Shown: positions 30,711 through 36,299 of the stretch, piece by piece
Numbering within the stretch: position 1 is the first letter of the stretch
Layout: every line of letters starts with the position of its first letter
Origin: Ideonella livida
Lineage (GTDB): Bacteria; Pseudomonadota; Gammaproteobacteria; Burkholderiales; Burkholderiaceae_C
Assembly: GCF_010499455.1 (NCBI RefSeq)
Contig: NZ_JAAGOH010000002.1
Location: 248,001 to 312,000 of the forward strand
Direction: 5' to 3'
Length of the DNA: 64,000 nucleotides
Translations under genes and position numbers: made by a program
The notes under the pieces: model-generated
What the model saw: the letters and a program-made list of their open reading frames with translations, nothing else
Databases searched by the model: none
Told to the model about the DNA's origin: nothing

Positions 30711-30795
30711 TACATTAGGGTGATGCAAGCGCCGGGGGATCGGCCCACTTGCATGGCGACTGTTCATGGGGCCCCTTGCCGGGGCCCCCTTTTTT
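30711..30795 (+). ncRNA. Structured leader / possible riboswitch-attenuator before the antiporter gene
   Basis: A TACATT box (30711-30716) would start RNA near 30722. From there ATGCAAG (30723-30729) pairs with CTTGCAT (30748-30754) around an inner GCCG-GGGGAT-CGGC hairpin. Alternative pairing of GGTG (30719-30722) or GGCG (30755-30758) with CGCC (30730-30733) is possible. A strong terminator follows. I do not match it to a named RNA class. It could instead be a small RNA or just the lysR 3' end. Confidence 0.4.
30768..30795 (+). terminator. Strong intrinsic terminator between lysR and the antiporter gene
   Basis: GGGGCCCC-TTGCC-GGGGCCCC followed by C and six T (30790-30795). It lies 99 nt after the lysR stop and 90 nt before the antiporter ATG. 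It either ends the lysR transcript or acts as an attenuator in the antiporter leader. Confidence 0.9.
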
Positions 30796-30885
30796 GCTGC
30801 TGCCCTCGGAATGCAGCGCGTGACGGAACCTTGCGGCGCGGGTGCACTCCGCTCTAGGTCGACCCATCTGACCGGCCCCCTCACC

Positions 30886-32145
30886 ATGTCCCCACCCAGC
30901 ACCTTGCACCTGATCGCCACGGTCCTCTTCGCCCTGGCCTTGGTCCACACTTTCTCCACCAAGTTCTTCGAGCGCCTGGCCCACCGGCATCCACGTCACG
31001 CCGGCCTGTGGCACCTGCTGGGCGAGGTGGAAGTGGTGTTTGGCTTCTGGGCCATGGTGCTGGTGGTGGTGATGTTCGCCCTGCAGGGCAAGGCCGAGGC
31101 CACGGCCTACCTGGATGGCCGCAACTACACCGAGCCCCTGTTCGTCTTTGCCATCATGGTCGTGGCCGGCACGCGGCCCATCCTGCAGCTGGCCGCCACC
31201 AGCGTCATCCGCCTGGCGCAGTGGCTGCCGATGGCCGCGGCGCCGGCCCAGGTCTTTCTGCTGCTGGCCCTGGTGCCGCTGCTGGGCTCCTTCATCACCG
31301 AGCCGGCGGCCATGACACTGGCCGCCCTCATGCTGCGTGACTTGGTCTTCAGTCAGGCCGTCAGCACCCGGCTGAAATACGTGGTGCTGGGCACCCTGTT
31401 CGTCAACGTGTCCATCGGCGGCACGCTCACGCCGTTCGCCGCACCGCCGGTGCTCATGGTGGCCGGCGTCTGGGGCTGGGACCTTGCCTTCATGGTGGCC
31501 CACTTCGGCTGGAAATCGGCGGTGGCCGTGGTGGTCAACGCCCTGGCGGTGGTCTGGCTGTTCCGGCACGACCTGCGGGGCGTGCAGGCGGCGCGCCCAG
31601 GCACTGAAGCCCCGGTGCCCGCCAGCGTGGTGGGGGTGCACCTGCTGTTCCTGGCCGGGGTGGTGACCTTTGCGCACCATCCGCCGGTGTTTCTGGGCCT
31701 GTTCCTGTTCTTCCTGGGCTTCACCGCCGCCTACCAGCGCCACCAGAGTCCCCTGATCCTGCGCGAAGCGCTGCTGGTGGCCTTCTTCCTGGCCGGCCTG
31801 GTGGTGCTGGGAGGCCTGCAGGCCTGGTGGCTCTCCCCGCTGTTGCTGGGCATGGACAGCACCACCGTGTTCTTCGGCGCCACCGCGCTGACGGCCATCA
31901 CCGACAACGCCGCCCTGACCTACCTGGGTTCGCTGGTGCCCGGTCTGCCGGAAGACTTCAAGATCGCGCTGGTGGCCGGGGCCGTGACGGGCGGCGGGCT
32001 GACCGTGATCGCCAACGCCCCCAACCCGGCGGGCGCGGCCATCCTGCGGGGCAGCTTTGAAGACCAGACCATCCATCCCGGTGGGCTGCTCCTGGCGGCC
32101 TTGCCCCCCACCGCCGTGGCGGTGCTGGCCTTCCAGCTGCTTTGA
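30886..32145 (+). CDS. Putative Na+/H+ antiporter (Na_H_antiport_3-like membrane protein)
   Basis: A 419-residue polytopic protein with about 11 hydrophobic segments, started at MSPPSTLHLIATVLF. Recognisable blocks are FTKFFERLAHRHP-like HTFSTKFFERLAHRHPRHA, LLGEVEVVFGFWA, NVSIGGTLTPFAAPPVLMVA and ITDNAALTYLGSLVPGL, with charged or polar residues inside membrane helices as in ion antiporters. Family assignment is from these blocks; ion specificity is untested. A structured leader and terminator precede it. A MarR gene follows 73 nt later on the same strand. Confidence 0.78.
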   Translation: MSPPSTLHLIATVLFALALVHTFSTKFFERLAHRHPRHAGLWHLLGEVEVVFGFWAMVLVVVMFALQGKAEATAYLDGRNYTEPLFVFAIMVVAGTRPILQLAATSVIRLAQWLPMAAAPAQVFLLLALVPLLGSFITEPAAMTLAALMLRDLVFSQAVSTRLKYVVLGTLFVNVSIGGTLTPFAAPPVLMVAGVWGWDLAFMVAHFGWKSAVAVVVNALAVVWLFRHDLRGVQAARPGTEAPVPASVVGVHLLFLAGVVTFAHHPPVFLGLFLFFLGFTAAYQRHQSPLILREALLVAFFLAGLVVLGGLQAWWLSPLLLGMDSTTVFFGATALTAITDNAALTYLGSLVPGLPEDFKIALVAGAVTGGGLTVIANAPNPAGAAILRGSFEDQTIHPGGLLLAALPPTAVAVLAFQLL

Positions 32146-32218: not shown

Positions 32219-32704
32219 ATGCCCCCCACTTCCGCCCAGCCCGCGCCCCAGCAGGCCAGCCGCGTGCTGCGCCAGTTCCGCCAAGTGTTCAACACTGTGC
32301 GGGCCCATTTTCAACAGGTGGAGAAGCATGCCGGCGTGAGCGGCGCACAGCTTTGGGCGCTGAGCCTGGTGGCGGCGGAGCCCGGCCTGGGCGTCGGCGC
32401 CTTGGCCCAGGCCATGGACGTCCACCCCTCCACCGCCAGCAACCTGGTGCGCGCGCTGCAAGGGGCCGCGCTGCTGGAAGCACGCCGCGAGGGCCCCGAC
32501 CGCCGCGCCGTGCAACTGCACCTCACGCCCCAAGGTCAGGACGTGCTGGCACGGGCGCCTGCGCCGTTCAGTGGCGTGCTGCCGCAGGCGCTGGCGGCAC
32601 TGGATGCAGACTGTCTGGGCCGGCTGGAGCGGGACCTGGCGCAGTTGCTGCGCCATCTTGAGGCCGATGCACGGGCCGCCCGGACCCCCTTGGCCGACCT
32701 GTGA
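32219..32704 (+). CDS. MarR-family transcriptional regulator
   Basis: A 161-residue winged-helix regulator. N-terminal dimer helices (RVLRQFRQVFNTVRAHFQQVEKHAG) are followed by the HTH (GVGALAQAMDVHPSTASNLVRALQGAALLEARR) and wing (REGPDRRAVQLHLTPQGQDVL). It is likely a ligand-responsive repressor. The next gene, 58 bp downstream, is the ClC fusion, whose -10 box is covered by an AT-rich palindrome that suits a MarR dimer. Confidence 0.9.
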   Translation: MPPTSAQPAPQQASRVLRQFRQVFNTVRAHFQQVEKHAGVSGAQLWALSLVAAEPGLGVGALAQAMDVHPSTASNLVRALQGAALLEARREGPDRRAVQLHLTPQGQDVLARAPAPFSGVLPQALAALDADCLGRLERDLAQLLRHLEADARAARTPLADL

Positions 32705-32732: not shown

Positions 32733-32753
32733 TTATATTTAGACAAATATAAT
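32733..32753. promoter_or_regulatory. AT-rich palindrome over the consensus -10 box of the ClC gene
   Basis: TTATATTT-AGAC-AAATATAA (32733-32752) is a perfect 8-bp inverted repeat. The right arm overlaps a perfect TATAAT (32748-32753). It is the most AT-rich spot in the area and lies between the marR-type stop and the ClC ATG at 32763. It is a likely repressor site. Confidence 0.7.
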
Positions 32754-32762
32754 CTGGCACCT

Positions 32763-34631
32763 ATGACAGCGCCGGCCCCTGCTCCCTGCCAAGCCGCCCA
32801 TCGGACATGCACCGGGTGGGCAGCAGCCCTGCTGGCCAAGTGGCGGCGTGGCCGGCGGCTGCTGTGGCTGTTCTGCGCTGGTGGATGGCGCGCCCTGCGG
32901 GACGTGGAGCCCGCGTTCTGGGCGCAGTTGCAGCAGGAAGCGGTGGCCTGGCGCCCCTGGGCCGATCGGGCCGTGGTGCTGGGCGCCGCCCTGCTGACCG
33001 GCGCGGCGGTGGTGACCTTCACGCTGCTGGCGGAGGCGGCCGGCCATGCCGCGCAGGCCCTCTCCAACGCCACGCCGCTGGGGCCCTGGGTCATGCTGGC
33101 CTGGACGCCGCTGCTCACCGTCGGGCTGCTGGGCTGGACGCGGCGCTGGGCCCCTACCGCGGCCGGCAGCGGGATCCCCCAGGTGTTGTCTGCACTGGAC
33201 GAGCACACCCCAGGCTGGCGCCGAGCGCAGCTGGTGGGCTGGTCCGTCGCGCTGCACAAGATCGGCCTGGTCTGTGGTGGCCTGCTGGCCGGCCTGTCCA
33301 TGGGCCGAGAAGGCCCCACGGTGCAGGTGGGTGCGGGCCTGATGGTGCAGGCCCGCCGCTGGCTGAGCGATCGGACCACGCTGGACGCCCACGACCTGAT
33401 GGTGGCCGGAGCCGCTGCGGGGGTGGCCGCCGCCTTCAACACGCCCTTGGGCGGCATCGTCTTCGCGCTGGAGCAGCTGACCCGCCGCCGACACTTGACG
33501 CACAGCAGCCTGGTGATCGCCGCCATCGTGCTGGCGGGCCTGGTGGCGGTGGCGGTCTTCGGCCAGGACAGCTATTTCGGGCACCTGGGCACCACGGTCT
33601 GGCCAGCCGGGCTCTGGTGGCCGGCCCTGCTCACGGCCCTGGCCTGCGGCTTGGCGGGGGGCCTGTTCGCCCGCCTGTTGGTGTTGTCTGCCCGGCCCCT
33701 GGGTGGACGACTGGGCCGCTGGCGACAGCATCATCCTTACCGTTTCGCAGCGGTCTGTGGGCTGGCGGTGGCGGTCATCGGCGCGGTGAGCGACGGCGCC
33801 ACGGCCGGCGCCAGCTACCAAACCACCCGCCAACTGCTGGAGGGCGGCGCCGACACGCCTCTGCTCTACACCCTGCTGAAGTCCTGTGCCACCTGGCTGA
33901 GCGCCTGGGCAGGGGTGCCGGGCGGCGTCTTTGCGCCCTCCCTGGCCATCGGCGCAGGCATCGGCCATGACATGGCGCAGTGGTGGGCCTTGCCGCAGGC
34001 TTCGGCGGTGGTCCTGGTGGCCCTGGGCATGGCCGGGTTTCTGGCGGCCAGCACCGGCGGCCCCATCACCGCCTTCATCATCGTGATGGAGATGGTGGGG
34101 GGCCAGTCCCAGGTGCTGGGCCTGATGGCCTGCGCGCTGCTGGCTACTGGCGTCTCACGGCTGATCTCCCGGCCGCTGTATCTGGAGCTGGCTGTGGGTT
34201 GGTCCGTCACGCCCAGCGGCAGTCTGTCGGACCCGGGCCCCGATGGCGGGGCTCCGGTGGCAAGATCGCCTGCAGCATTGCCCCCTGGGCAGCACGGGAG
34301 ACCCGCCATGAGCCTGATCGACGACCTGACCCGACTGGACCAACTGCACCGCGAGGGCGCCTTGAGTGACGACGAGTTCCGGCAAGCCAAGGCGCGTCTG
34401 CTGGACGTGCCCCTCGGGGCGCAGGTGCAGGCGCCGAGCTTGGTGCAGGGCGTCAACCGCCTGCGCCGCAGCGTCGCTGACCGCTGGCTGGGCGGCGTGT
34501 GCGGCGGCCTGGCGCAATCGACAGGTATCGAGGCGTGGGTGTGGCGCCTGGGGGTGGTGGTGCTGGCCCTGTTCGGCGGCTCAGGCCTGTTGGCCTATGC
34601 CCTGCTGTGGCTGTTTGTGCCCAGCGAGTAG
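32763..34631 (+). CDS. ClC-family chloride channel/transporter fused to SHOCT and PspC domains
   Basis: A 622-residue protein. The ClC core (about 45-485) has GSGIPQ, GREGPTVQVGA with the gating Glu183, FNTPLGGIVFALEQ and GVPGGVFAPSLAIGAG. In the ALEQ motif Gln238 stands where the proton-relay Glu (E203 of E. coli ClC-ec1) is usual. After a Pro/Gly-rich linker the same frame continues into a SHOCT-like helix pair (518-546) and a PspC domain (about 572-622: WLGGVCGGLAQSTGIEAWVWRL, then a hydrophobic helix). An internal ATG at 34308 with CGGGAG before it could also make the 107-residue SHOCT-PspC part alone. The start at 32763 follows the promoter palindrome. Confidence 0.88.
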   Translation: MTAPAPAPCQAAHRTCTGWAAALLAKWRRGRRLLWLFCAGGWRALRDVEPAFWAQLQQEAVAWRPWADRAVVLGAALLTGAAVVTFTLLAEAAGHAAQALSNATPLGPWVMLAWTPLLTVGLLGWTRRWAPTAAGSGIPQVLSALDEHTPGWRRAQLVGWSVALHKIGLVCGGLLAGLSMGREGPTVQVGAGLMVQARRWLSDRTTLDAHDLMVAGAAAGVAAAFNTPLGGIVFALEQLTRRRHLTHSSLVIAAIVLAGLVAVAVFGQDSYFGHLGTTVWPAGLWWPALLTALACGLAGGLFARLLVLSARPLGGRLGRWRQHHPYRFAAVCGLAVAVIGAVSDGATAGASYQTTRQLLEGGADTPLLYTLLKSCATWLSAWAGVPGGVFAPSLAIGAGIGHDMAQWWALPQASAVVLVALGMAGFLAASTGGPITAFIIVMEMVGGQSQVLGLMACALLATGVSRLISRPLYLELAVGWSVTPSGSLSDPGPDGGAPVARSPAALPPGQHGRPAMSLIDDLTRLDQLHREGALSDDEFRQAKARLLDVPLGAQVQAPSLVQGVNRLRRSVADRWLGGVCGGLAQSTGIEAWVWRLGVVVLALFGGSGLLAYALLWLFVPSE

Positions 34632-34654: not shown

Positions 34655-36145
34655 TCAGGCGATCTTCACGTACTCGTAGTCCACGGGCTGCTGGTTGATG
34701 CCCATGCGCGGCGGGGCGATCCAGCTGGCGTACTGGCCGGGCTGGTGGCAAGGCCGCATCAAGCTCTGGATGAAGGCGATGTCCTCGGCGTTGGGCAGGA
34801 ATTCGTCCTTCAGTGCGGCCCAGGTCTCCTCGCCCACGACCTCGCCGGCTGGGGTGATGCGGTGGCCGGCAAACTCACCAATGCGGCGGTTGAAGCCCTT
34901 GTGCGGCTGGCTGAAGCGGAAGTGGAGGCCCGCCTTTTCGATGACCTTGTTCCAGCGGTCCAGGCCCCCCTGGCAGTCGGCTATGTAGTCGTCCAGCAGG
35001 CGGCTGTTGATGGCGCGCAGGGCGGGCACGTCCTCCCACACCAGCTCGCCTTGGACGACGCGCTGCACCGGGTAGGTGGCGTCCTGCAGCTGGTGGTCGT
35101 CCTGGAGCTGGGCCTCGTGGTAGCGGCCCTTCAGTCCGGCGTTGAAGGACTCGGCGGCGTTGGAGGAAATCTCCGAGCCGAACAGGTCGCGGGTGACGCT
35201 CATGTGGAAGTTGGCCTTGCGCTGCAGCAGCGGCAGGTCCACCACGCCCAGCCGGCGGATGGCAGCGGTGTCGTAGGGGTCGGTGATGCCCGCCTTGACC
35301 ATGGCCTCCACCGTGGCCTGCACGGTGCGGCCCACGCCGGTCTCGCCCACAAACAGATGGTGCGCCTCTTCGGTCAGCATGAAGCGGCAGCTGCGCGAGA
35401 GGGGGTCGAAGCCGCTCTCGGCCAGCGCAGCCAGCTGCATCTTGCCGTCGCGGTCGGTGAAGTAGGTGAACATGAAGAAGGACAGCCAGTCCGGGGTCTT
35501 CTCGTTGAAGGCGCCCAGGATGCGCGGGTTGTCCTGGTGGCCGCTGCGGCGCTCCAGCAGGGCCTGGGCTTCTTCGCGGCCGTCCTTGCCAAAGTACTTG
35601 ACCAGCAGGTAGACCATGGCCCAGAGGTGGCGGCCCTCCTCCACATTGACCTGGAACAGGTTGCGCAGGTCATACAGGCTGGGGGCGGTGGCGCCGAGCC
35701 AGCGCTGCTGCTCCACGCTGGCGGGCTCGGTGTCGGCCTGGATGACGATCAGGCGCTTGAGCAGCGAGCGGTATTCACCCGGCACCTCCTGCCAGGCCGG
35801 CTCGCCCTTGTGTCGGCCATGGGGGATGGTGCGGCCAGGCACCGCGGGCGCCAGCAGGATGCCCCAGCGGTAATCGGGCATCTTCACGTAGCCGAACTTG
35901 GCCCAGCCGGCCGGGTCCACGCCCACCGCGGTGCGCAGGTACACGTCGGCCTCCTGGAAGCCTTCGGGGCCCATGTCCTTCCACCAGTCGATGTAACCGG
36001 GGTGCCAGCCCTCCAGCGCGCGCAGCAGCTGGCGGTCGGAGGAGAGGTTGACGTTGTTGGGAATAGCGTCGTCGTAGCTGACTTCAACGAAGTTCTCGGC
36101 CACTACGGCCTCGGTGGCCTCGATCAAGGTGTCGTCCTGGCTCAT
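34655..36145 (-). CDS. boxB: Benzoyl-CoA 2,3-epoxidase, oxygenase subunit BoxB
   Basis: A 496-residue protein started at MSQDDT (36145, after CGGAGA). The body matches BoxB from IPNNVNLSSDRQLLRALEGW onward, including DMGPEGFQEADVYLRTAV and PDYRWGILLAP. Two EexxH-like clusters, E169-E170-G-R-H173 and E259-E260-A-H-H263, are the expected diiron ligands. With the BoxA reductase it converts benzoyl-CoA to its 2,3-epoxide under oxygen. BoxA, BoxC, BoxD and the benzoate-CoA ligase are not in the window, so this copy is an orphan here. Four TGCA-N6-TGCN elements lie in its upstream region. Confidence 0.95.
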   Translation of the reverse strand: MSQDDTLIEATEAVVAENFVEVSYDDAIPNNVNLSSDRQLLRALEGWHPGYIDWWKDMGPEGFQEADVYLRTAVGVDPAGWAKFGYVKMPDYRWGILLAPAVPGRTIPHGRHKGEPAWQEVPGEYRSLLKRLIVIQADTEPASVEQQRWLGATAPSLYDLRNLFQVNVEEGRHLWAMVYLLVKYFGKDGREEAQALLERRSGHQDNPRILGAFNEKTPDWLSFFMFTYFTDRDGKMQLAALAESGFDPLSRSCRFMLTEEAHHLFVGETGVGRTVQATVEAMVKAGITDPYDTAAIRRLGVVDLPLLQRKANFHMSVTRDLFGSEISSNAAESFNAGLKGRYHEAQLQDDHQLQDATYPVQRVVQGELVWEDVPALRAINSRLLDDYIADCQGGLDRWNKVIEKAGLHFRFSQPHKGFNRRIGEFAGHRITPAGEVVGEETWAALKDEFLPNAEDIAFIQSLMRPCHQPGQYASWIAPPRMGINQQPVDYEYVKIA

Positions 36146-36163
36146 GGGGTGTCTCCGGTTTGA

Positions 36164-36299
36164 TGCACTTTTATGCCCACTCAAGCGAGCACATGCATCA
36201 TCTTGCTCATCACAAGACATCCCCTTGAGCCAGATCAGAGAACGGCACTCCAGTGCATCAAACGATCAACCCCTGAAACAAAAAGCGCACTTCGATGCA
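36164..36299. promoter_or_regulatory. Four TGCA-N6-TGCN elements upstream of boxB
   Basis: Plus-strand elements are TGCACTTTTATGCC (36164-36177) and TGCATCATCTTGCT (36194-36207). Minus-strand elements are TGCACTGGAGTGCC (36244-36257) and TGCATCGAAGTGCG (36286-36299). Each has one exact TGCA and a second TGC 6 nt on. TGCA repeats are, from memory, what BzdR/BoxR-type benzoyl-CoA regulators bind. The region is AT-rich compared with its surroundings. Confidence 0.5.

Follow-up and report, generated by a model that had tools for sequence, protein, structure and literature searches.

A ClC gene open into a SHOCT-PspC gene in Ideonella livida, and the glutamine shared by its ClC clade

How could a single bacterial gene come to encode both a chloride transporter and a PspC protein, and what would that transporter do with glutamine at the position of E203 in ClC-ec1? 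Both questions are raised by a locus of Ideonella livida, which we examined within a window of 64,000 nucleotides (contig NZ_JAAGOH010000002.1, positions 248,001 to 312,000; coordinates below count from the first letter of this window). An initial annotation had read a ClC core, a SHOCT helix pair and a PspC domain in one open frame, and both the stop-free ORF and the Pfam domains confirm it.

A single frame from the ClC start to the PspC stop

The frame runs uninterrupted, as a single ORF of 622 codons (622 residues), from ATG 32763 to the TAG at 34629-34631. A mechanical ORF call begins farther 5', at GTG 32571 within the MarR gene; ATG 32763 is the likelier start of the ClC frame. The features of the locus are as follows.

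32219 to 32704, forward strand: MarR-family regulator gene, directly 5' of the ClC gene (Pfam MarR_2, E 1.9e-9)
32733 to 32752, no strand: perfect 20-nt AT-rich palindrome TTATATTTAGACAAATATAA between the MarR and ClC genes, overlapping a TATAAT-like -10
32763 to 34307, forward strand: ClC transporter part, residues 1-515, with E183 (Glu-ex), E237 and Gln238; tail/linker from about residue 477
34191 to 34307, forward strand: linker between ClC and SHOCT-PspC, residues 477-515, including the Shine-Dalgarno-like site; low pLDDT, no frame preference
34296 to 34300, forward strand: GGGAG Shine-Dalgarno-like site, 7 nt before ATG 34308
34308 to 34631, forward strand: SHOCT-PspC part, residues 516-622, equivalent to a complete stand-alone SHOCT-PspC protein

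A Pfam scan of the 622-residue product places Voltage_CLC at residues 125-466 (E 2.3e-81), SHOCT at 522-547 (27.3 bits, barely above the cut-off of 27) and PspC at 566-622 (E 1.8e-20; 72.9 bits against a cut-off of 25, which makes this a PspC-domain protein). A single hydrophobic stretch, at about 595-612, follows the SHOCT helices in the C-terminal part. The AlphaFold model, built from an alignment of 40 rows of which seven are PspC rows, is confident in the ClC part, mostly of low pLDDT at residues 485-513, confident again at 521-550, SHOCT included (block means 83-94), and poor in the PspC part, where pLDDT is mostly <50. All 50 PDB matches listed by Foldseek are ClC-ec1 or Salmonella ClC chains, 2fec among them, with TMt 0.74-0.80 across these 50; Pfam domain and ClC fold thus both place the protein in the Voltage_CLC family.

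The MarR gene recurs beside ClC genes of this kind. A MarR homologue adjoins ClC in 27 of the 76 relatives with enough upstream sequence (19 of the 27 in the same direction) and in five of six ClC loci of a separate locus comparison. Similar palindromes lie 5' of ClC in 14 of 80 relatives, a count made with a pattern derived from earlier examples and without a chance control. The palindrome at 32733-32752 is a candidate MarR operator, through which the regulator may control ClC. Just 5' of the MarR and ClC genes, a putative Na+/H+ antiporter (30766-32145; PF07399, E 1e-186) has no match in the 15 relative loci compared. Downstream, a convergent gene on the reverse strand (34658-36220), which may be BoxB, has a weak PaaA_PaaC match (27.1 bits, Pfam cut-off 28.5).

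Occurrence of the fusion and of its two parts

We read the best 80 of 411 ClC relatives from named genomes, each with flanks of at most 6 kb, shorter at contig ends. Every one of these ClC genes ends at its own stop codon, shortly past the Y473 region, and none of the 80 loci holds a fusion or a SHOCT-PspC gene; the best SHOCT-PspC scores within them are 37-59, as against 277-327 for orthologues. The full protein was also searched against whole genomes, in overlapping sets: 60 genomes at first, 16 of the genus, 399 of the family and 399 of the order (handles to G795). Among the matches listed in these searches, a stop-free run from ClC into PspC occurs in the window's own match alone, and a second genome with this junction did not turn up among the genomes searched. 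The family and order searches scored no more than three candidates in any genome, and the first look was by similarity to the query protein, so fusions of weak similarity may lie outside the matches listed. Several alignments that run past residue 516 (in genomes G314, G032, G622, G498, G160, G086, G144 and G780 and at loci L097 and L121) proved to be extensions over stops or tails, with no SHOCT-PspC nearby. No ClC-PspC fusion was found among the open-licence papers listed, and the words 'clc' and 'chloride' are absent from the main text of a survey of Psp proteins (PMC11237479). The fusion looks specific to the window's lineage.

Its C-terminal part has a separate existence. In 13 genomes, 12 from the genus and one from the family, SHOCT-PspC forms a separate gene 106-124 codons long. 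These 13 proteins are 52-66% identical to residues 516-622 and share the same two domains (in the two of 13 that were Pfam-scanned). All 13 have an ATG aligned with Met516, and in 11 of the 13, as in the window, GGAG, GAGG or AGGA precedes it by 5-13 nt; the base rate of such a site is 74 of 1493 window ATGs, ATG 34308 included. The aligned ATGs are probably the true starts of the stand-alone genes. The internal ATG 34308 with its GGGAG, earlier put forward as a possible second start, is thus present and falls where a stand-alone gene begins in each of the 13 relatives read. The stand-alone genes differ from the fused part in standing apart, in other and varying neighbourhoods (nine loci compared), and no gene order is conserved between the window and these nine loci.

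As far as searched, then, the homologues are two genes: none of the 80 nearest ClC genes is fused, and in seven genomes of the genus (G001, G005, G008, G009, G010, G013 and G015) a ClC of this type and SHOCT-PspC lie on different contigs or megabases apart. A further genome (G014) keeps stand-alone SHOCT-PspC, with ClC only as remnants with stops (G014:C22:196311-196659), and in four others with SHOCT-PspC (G002, G003, G004 and G012) we found no match to a ClC of this type.

In the window's own genome (99.22% complete, 104 contigs) the ORF is the only ClC detected, with 9 of 9 first-look candidates scored, and the only PspC detected, with 41 of 41 scored. PspA was not found there (16 candidates scored, none matching; the control was positive in 9 of 14 known genomes). 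Within the genus, PspA was found in two of 16 genomes; the other 14 include the window's. The locus shares the PspC domain with the envelope-stress system of PspA, PspB, PspC and PspF, in a genome with no detected PspA, and the PspC itself falls short of the E. coli type (TIGR02978, 34.2 bits against a cut-off of 104). The proposal of a built-in envelope-stress module finds no footing as an established architecture, given 0 of 80 relatives with a fusion and no PspA found in the genome.

Origin of the join and its possible products

We think it probable that a MarR-linked ClC with glutamine at the E203 position was joined, in one lineage, to a SHOCT-PspC gene that brought its own start, and that both products may be made. 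A SHOCT-PspC gene would first have come to sit downstream of the ClC gene; the ClC stop would then have disappeared, or a shift of frame would have avoided it, and the ClC frame would have continued into PspC. Given adjacency, one lost stop or one frame change would suffice. ATG 34308 and its Shine-Dalgarno-like site would have been retained through these events, and because both are kept, the transcript would probably yield ClC-SHOCT-PspC from 32763 and free SHOCT-PspC from 34308. Against this origin, there is no sign of an ancestral ClC stop between the domains, and base composition does not decide the matter.

We looked for such signs in the linker and in the sequence leading up to ATG 34308. 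Of single-base shuffles of the linker (34194-34307, 114 nt), 55% are stop-free, so an open linker is not improbable. Its third-position GC shows no preference for its frame, which could have been taken as a sign of formerly non-coding sequence; we rejected this, because equally low values occur in 18 of the 70 free tails from relatives (10 of the 80 loci have no usable or distinct tail), and the measure therefore says nothing about the linker's past. When the leader of ATG 34308 was compared with the 13 stand-alone leaders, Shine-Dalgarno region included, its score was reached by only 4 of the 1493 ATGs in the window (itself included). Without the last 14 nt the leader is ordinary, 246 of the 1493 scoring as high, and we rejected any likeness beyond the Shine-Dalgarno region, where the linker has none that is detectable.

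A rival reading keeps the two as separate neighbouring genes and puts the join down to one base misread or misassembled in the GC-rich tail. Such an error would account for the join simply, and so would a recent mutation. The fusion comes from one genome only among the relatives searched, the PspC part retains its aligned start and Shine-Dalgarno-like site, and a stop for the ClC ORF does exist in one other frame, TGA 34309-34311, which overlaps the start of PspC in an ATGA. Nothing points directly to an error, however: frame 0 reads correctly up to Y-L-E-L-A and then from Met516 onward, and the shuffles show a linker free of stops to be unremarkable. We regard an error as unlikely, though as an alternative of real weight.

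More doubtful is an extension of the preferred origin, joining and retention of both starts, to function: the gene would make two overlapping products from the genome's sole ClC and sole PspC, the free form might associate with its fused counterpart, and a PspA-independent PspC would sense or set, at the membrane, the activity of a ClC from a natural Gln-in clade. It is very doubtful that the fusion was selected as such, with PspC and SHOCT sensing the state of the membrane or else tethering or regulating the ClC dimer. That the only detected ClC and the only detected PspC share one ORF speaks for such a role. The ClC C-terminus is cytoplasmic, and the position of the one hydrophobic stretch, after SHOCT, fits it. 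PspC is also known, from the survey cited above (PMC11237479), in fusions with signalling and membrane domains. Yet a second instance is absent from the 80 relatives and among the matches listed, the genome has no detected PspA, and most of the modelled PspC part stays at low confidence.

Glutamine at the inner glutamate position

Gln238 aligns with E203 of ClC-ec1 in a gap-free block (HMMER against Salmonella and E. coli ClC, including 2fec, by its title the E203Q mutant of ClC-ec1), so this assignment by the initial annotation is borne out, as is its claim that the gating glutamate is kept: Glu183, in the motif GREGP, occupies the E148 position. Glu237 corresponds to E202, Tyr473 to Y445, S136 to S107 and, in the same alignment, Leu142 to E113. 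The window protein thus shares with ClcA/CLC-ec1 (PDB 1ots) the ClC core, Glu-ex and the E202, Y445 and S107 positions; it differs in Gln at E203, Leu at E113 and the C-terminal SHOCT-PspC. Of the two glutamates expected of a ClcA-type exchanger, Glu-ex (E148) is present as Glu183 and Glu-in (E203) is replaced by Gln238. Identity to ClC-ec1 is 25-27%, and the score against the NCBIfam ClcA equivalog PRK05277 (159.5 bits) lies below the curated cut-off of 350. In CLC-ec1, E113 is the hydrogen-bond partner of E203 (PMC7253180); across all 107 rows of our wider alignment this column holds V, M, L, I or K.

That alignment comprises the window and the 106 rows kept from 131 candidate loci after duplicates and weak or short matches were dropped. 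The E203 position is Q in 63 rows, E in 39 and K in five; the Glu183 position is Glu in 106 of 107 and the Glu237 position in all 107. Among the nearest 80 relatives the counts are 60 Q, 18 E and 2 K, which lean to the window's own type because these were picked as nearest. On a tree built without the E203 column, by a quick method that leaves many weakly supported forks and some long branches, the three states require eight changes, and one branch of 65 rows that includes the window (SH-aLRT 100) holds 59 Q, 5 K and 1 E. Family labels on this branch are Sphaerotilaceae (29), Burkholderiaceae (8) and Lysobacteraceae (1), the others having no named family; four Q rows fall outside it, three of them Aquabacterium. 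By this comparison Gln238 is a state common to its clade, held by dozens of relatives, and because Q predominates there and the Glu183 and Glu237 positions are kept, it is a long-kept state rather than damage to the window gene. The ClC part may itself be unusual, given its long branch (0.65 against a median of 0.18). By title and abstract, the open-licence papers listed for MarR and ClC include none on this Gln-in clade.

Two side observations concern the variation around these residues. Lysine stands at the E203 position in L082, L089, L140, L142 and L144, inside the mostly-Gln branch. One locus, L006 (G030:C1:355461-356846), reads GRQGPS, with Gln at the gating-Glu position and Glu at the E203 position, and is a natural E148Q-like ClC of the same family.

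What glutamine would mean for transport can be judged from work on CLC-ec1. An absolute need for E203 protonation was claimed in PMC3519907, which describes E202 as a water organiser, and was revised by a 2020 paper (PMC7253180). It is highly improbable that Gln238 turns the window ClC into a Cl- channel instead of an exchanger: E203Q strongly degrades coupling in CLC-ec1, to a poor Cl-/H+ ratio of ~75 (PMC7253180), and CLC channels have Val at the E203 position (PMC3519907), but Cl--driven H+ pumping persists in both E203Q and E203A, several natural CLCs pump H+ without a titratable residue there (PMC7253180), Glu-in is described in a 2025 preprint as beneficial without being essential (PMC12248016), and our rows keep Glu-ex in 106 of 107 cases and the E202-position Glu in all. 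Since E203Q still pumps H+, if weakly, 'channel' does not follow from glutamine, and the earlier 'channel-like' label, drawn from Gln238 in a protein that keeps Glu-ex, falls away. A Cl- transporter that is gated, and whose coupling to H+ is weak or altered, is a plausible expectation; in the preferred origin the transporter part would move Cl- in this way under the Glu183 gate.

Should the fusion prove real, it would represent a recently formed gene with two products. The more useful part is the Gln-in clade, in which dozens of genomes keep Gln, sometimes Lys, at Glu-in. CLC-ec1 needs Glu-in for good coupling, and the neighbouring E202-position Glu is invariant in our 107 rows. The Gln-in ClCs can serve as natural test proteins for whether Glu-in acts as a proton-transfer site or as a helper of the water path.
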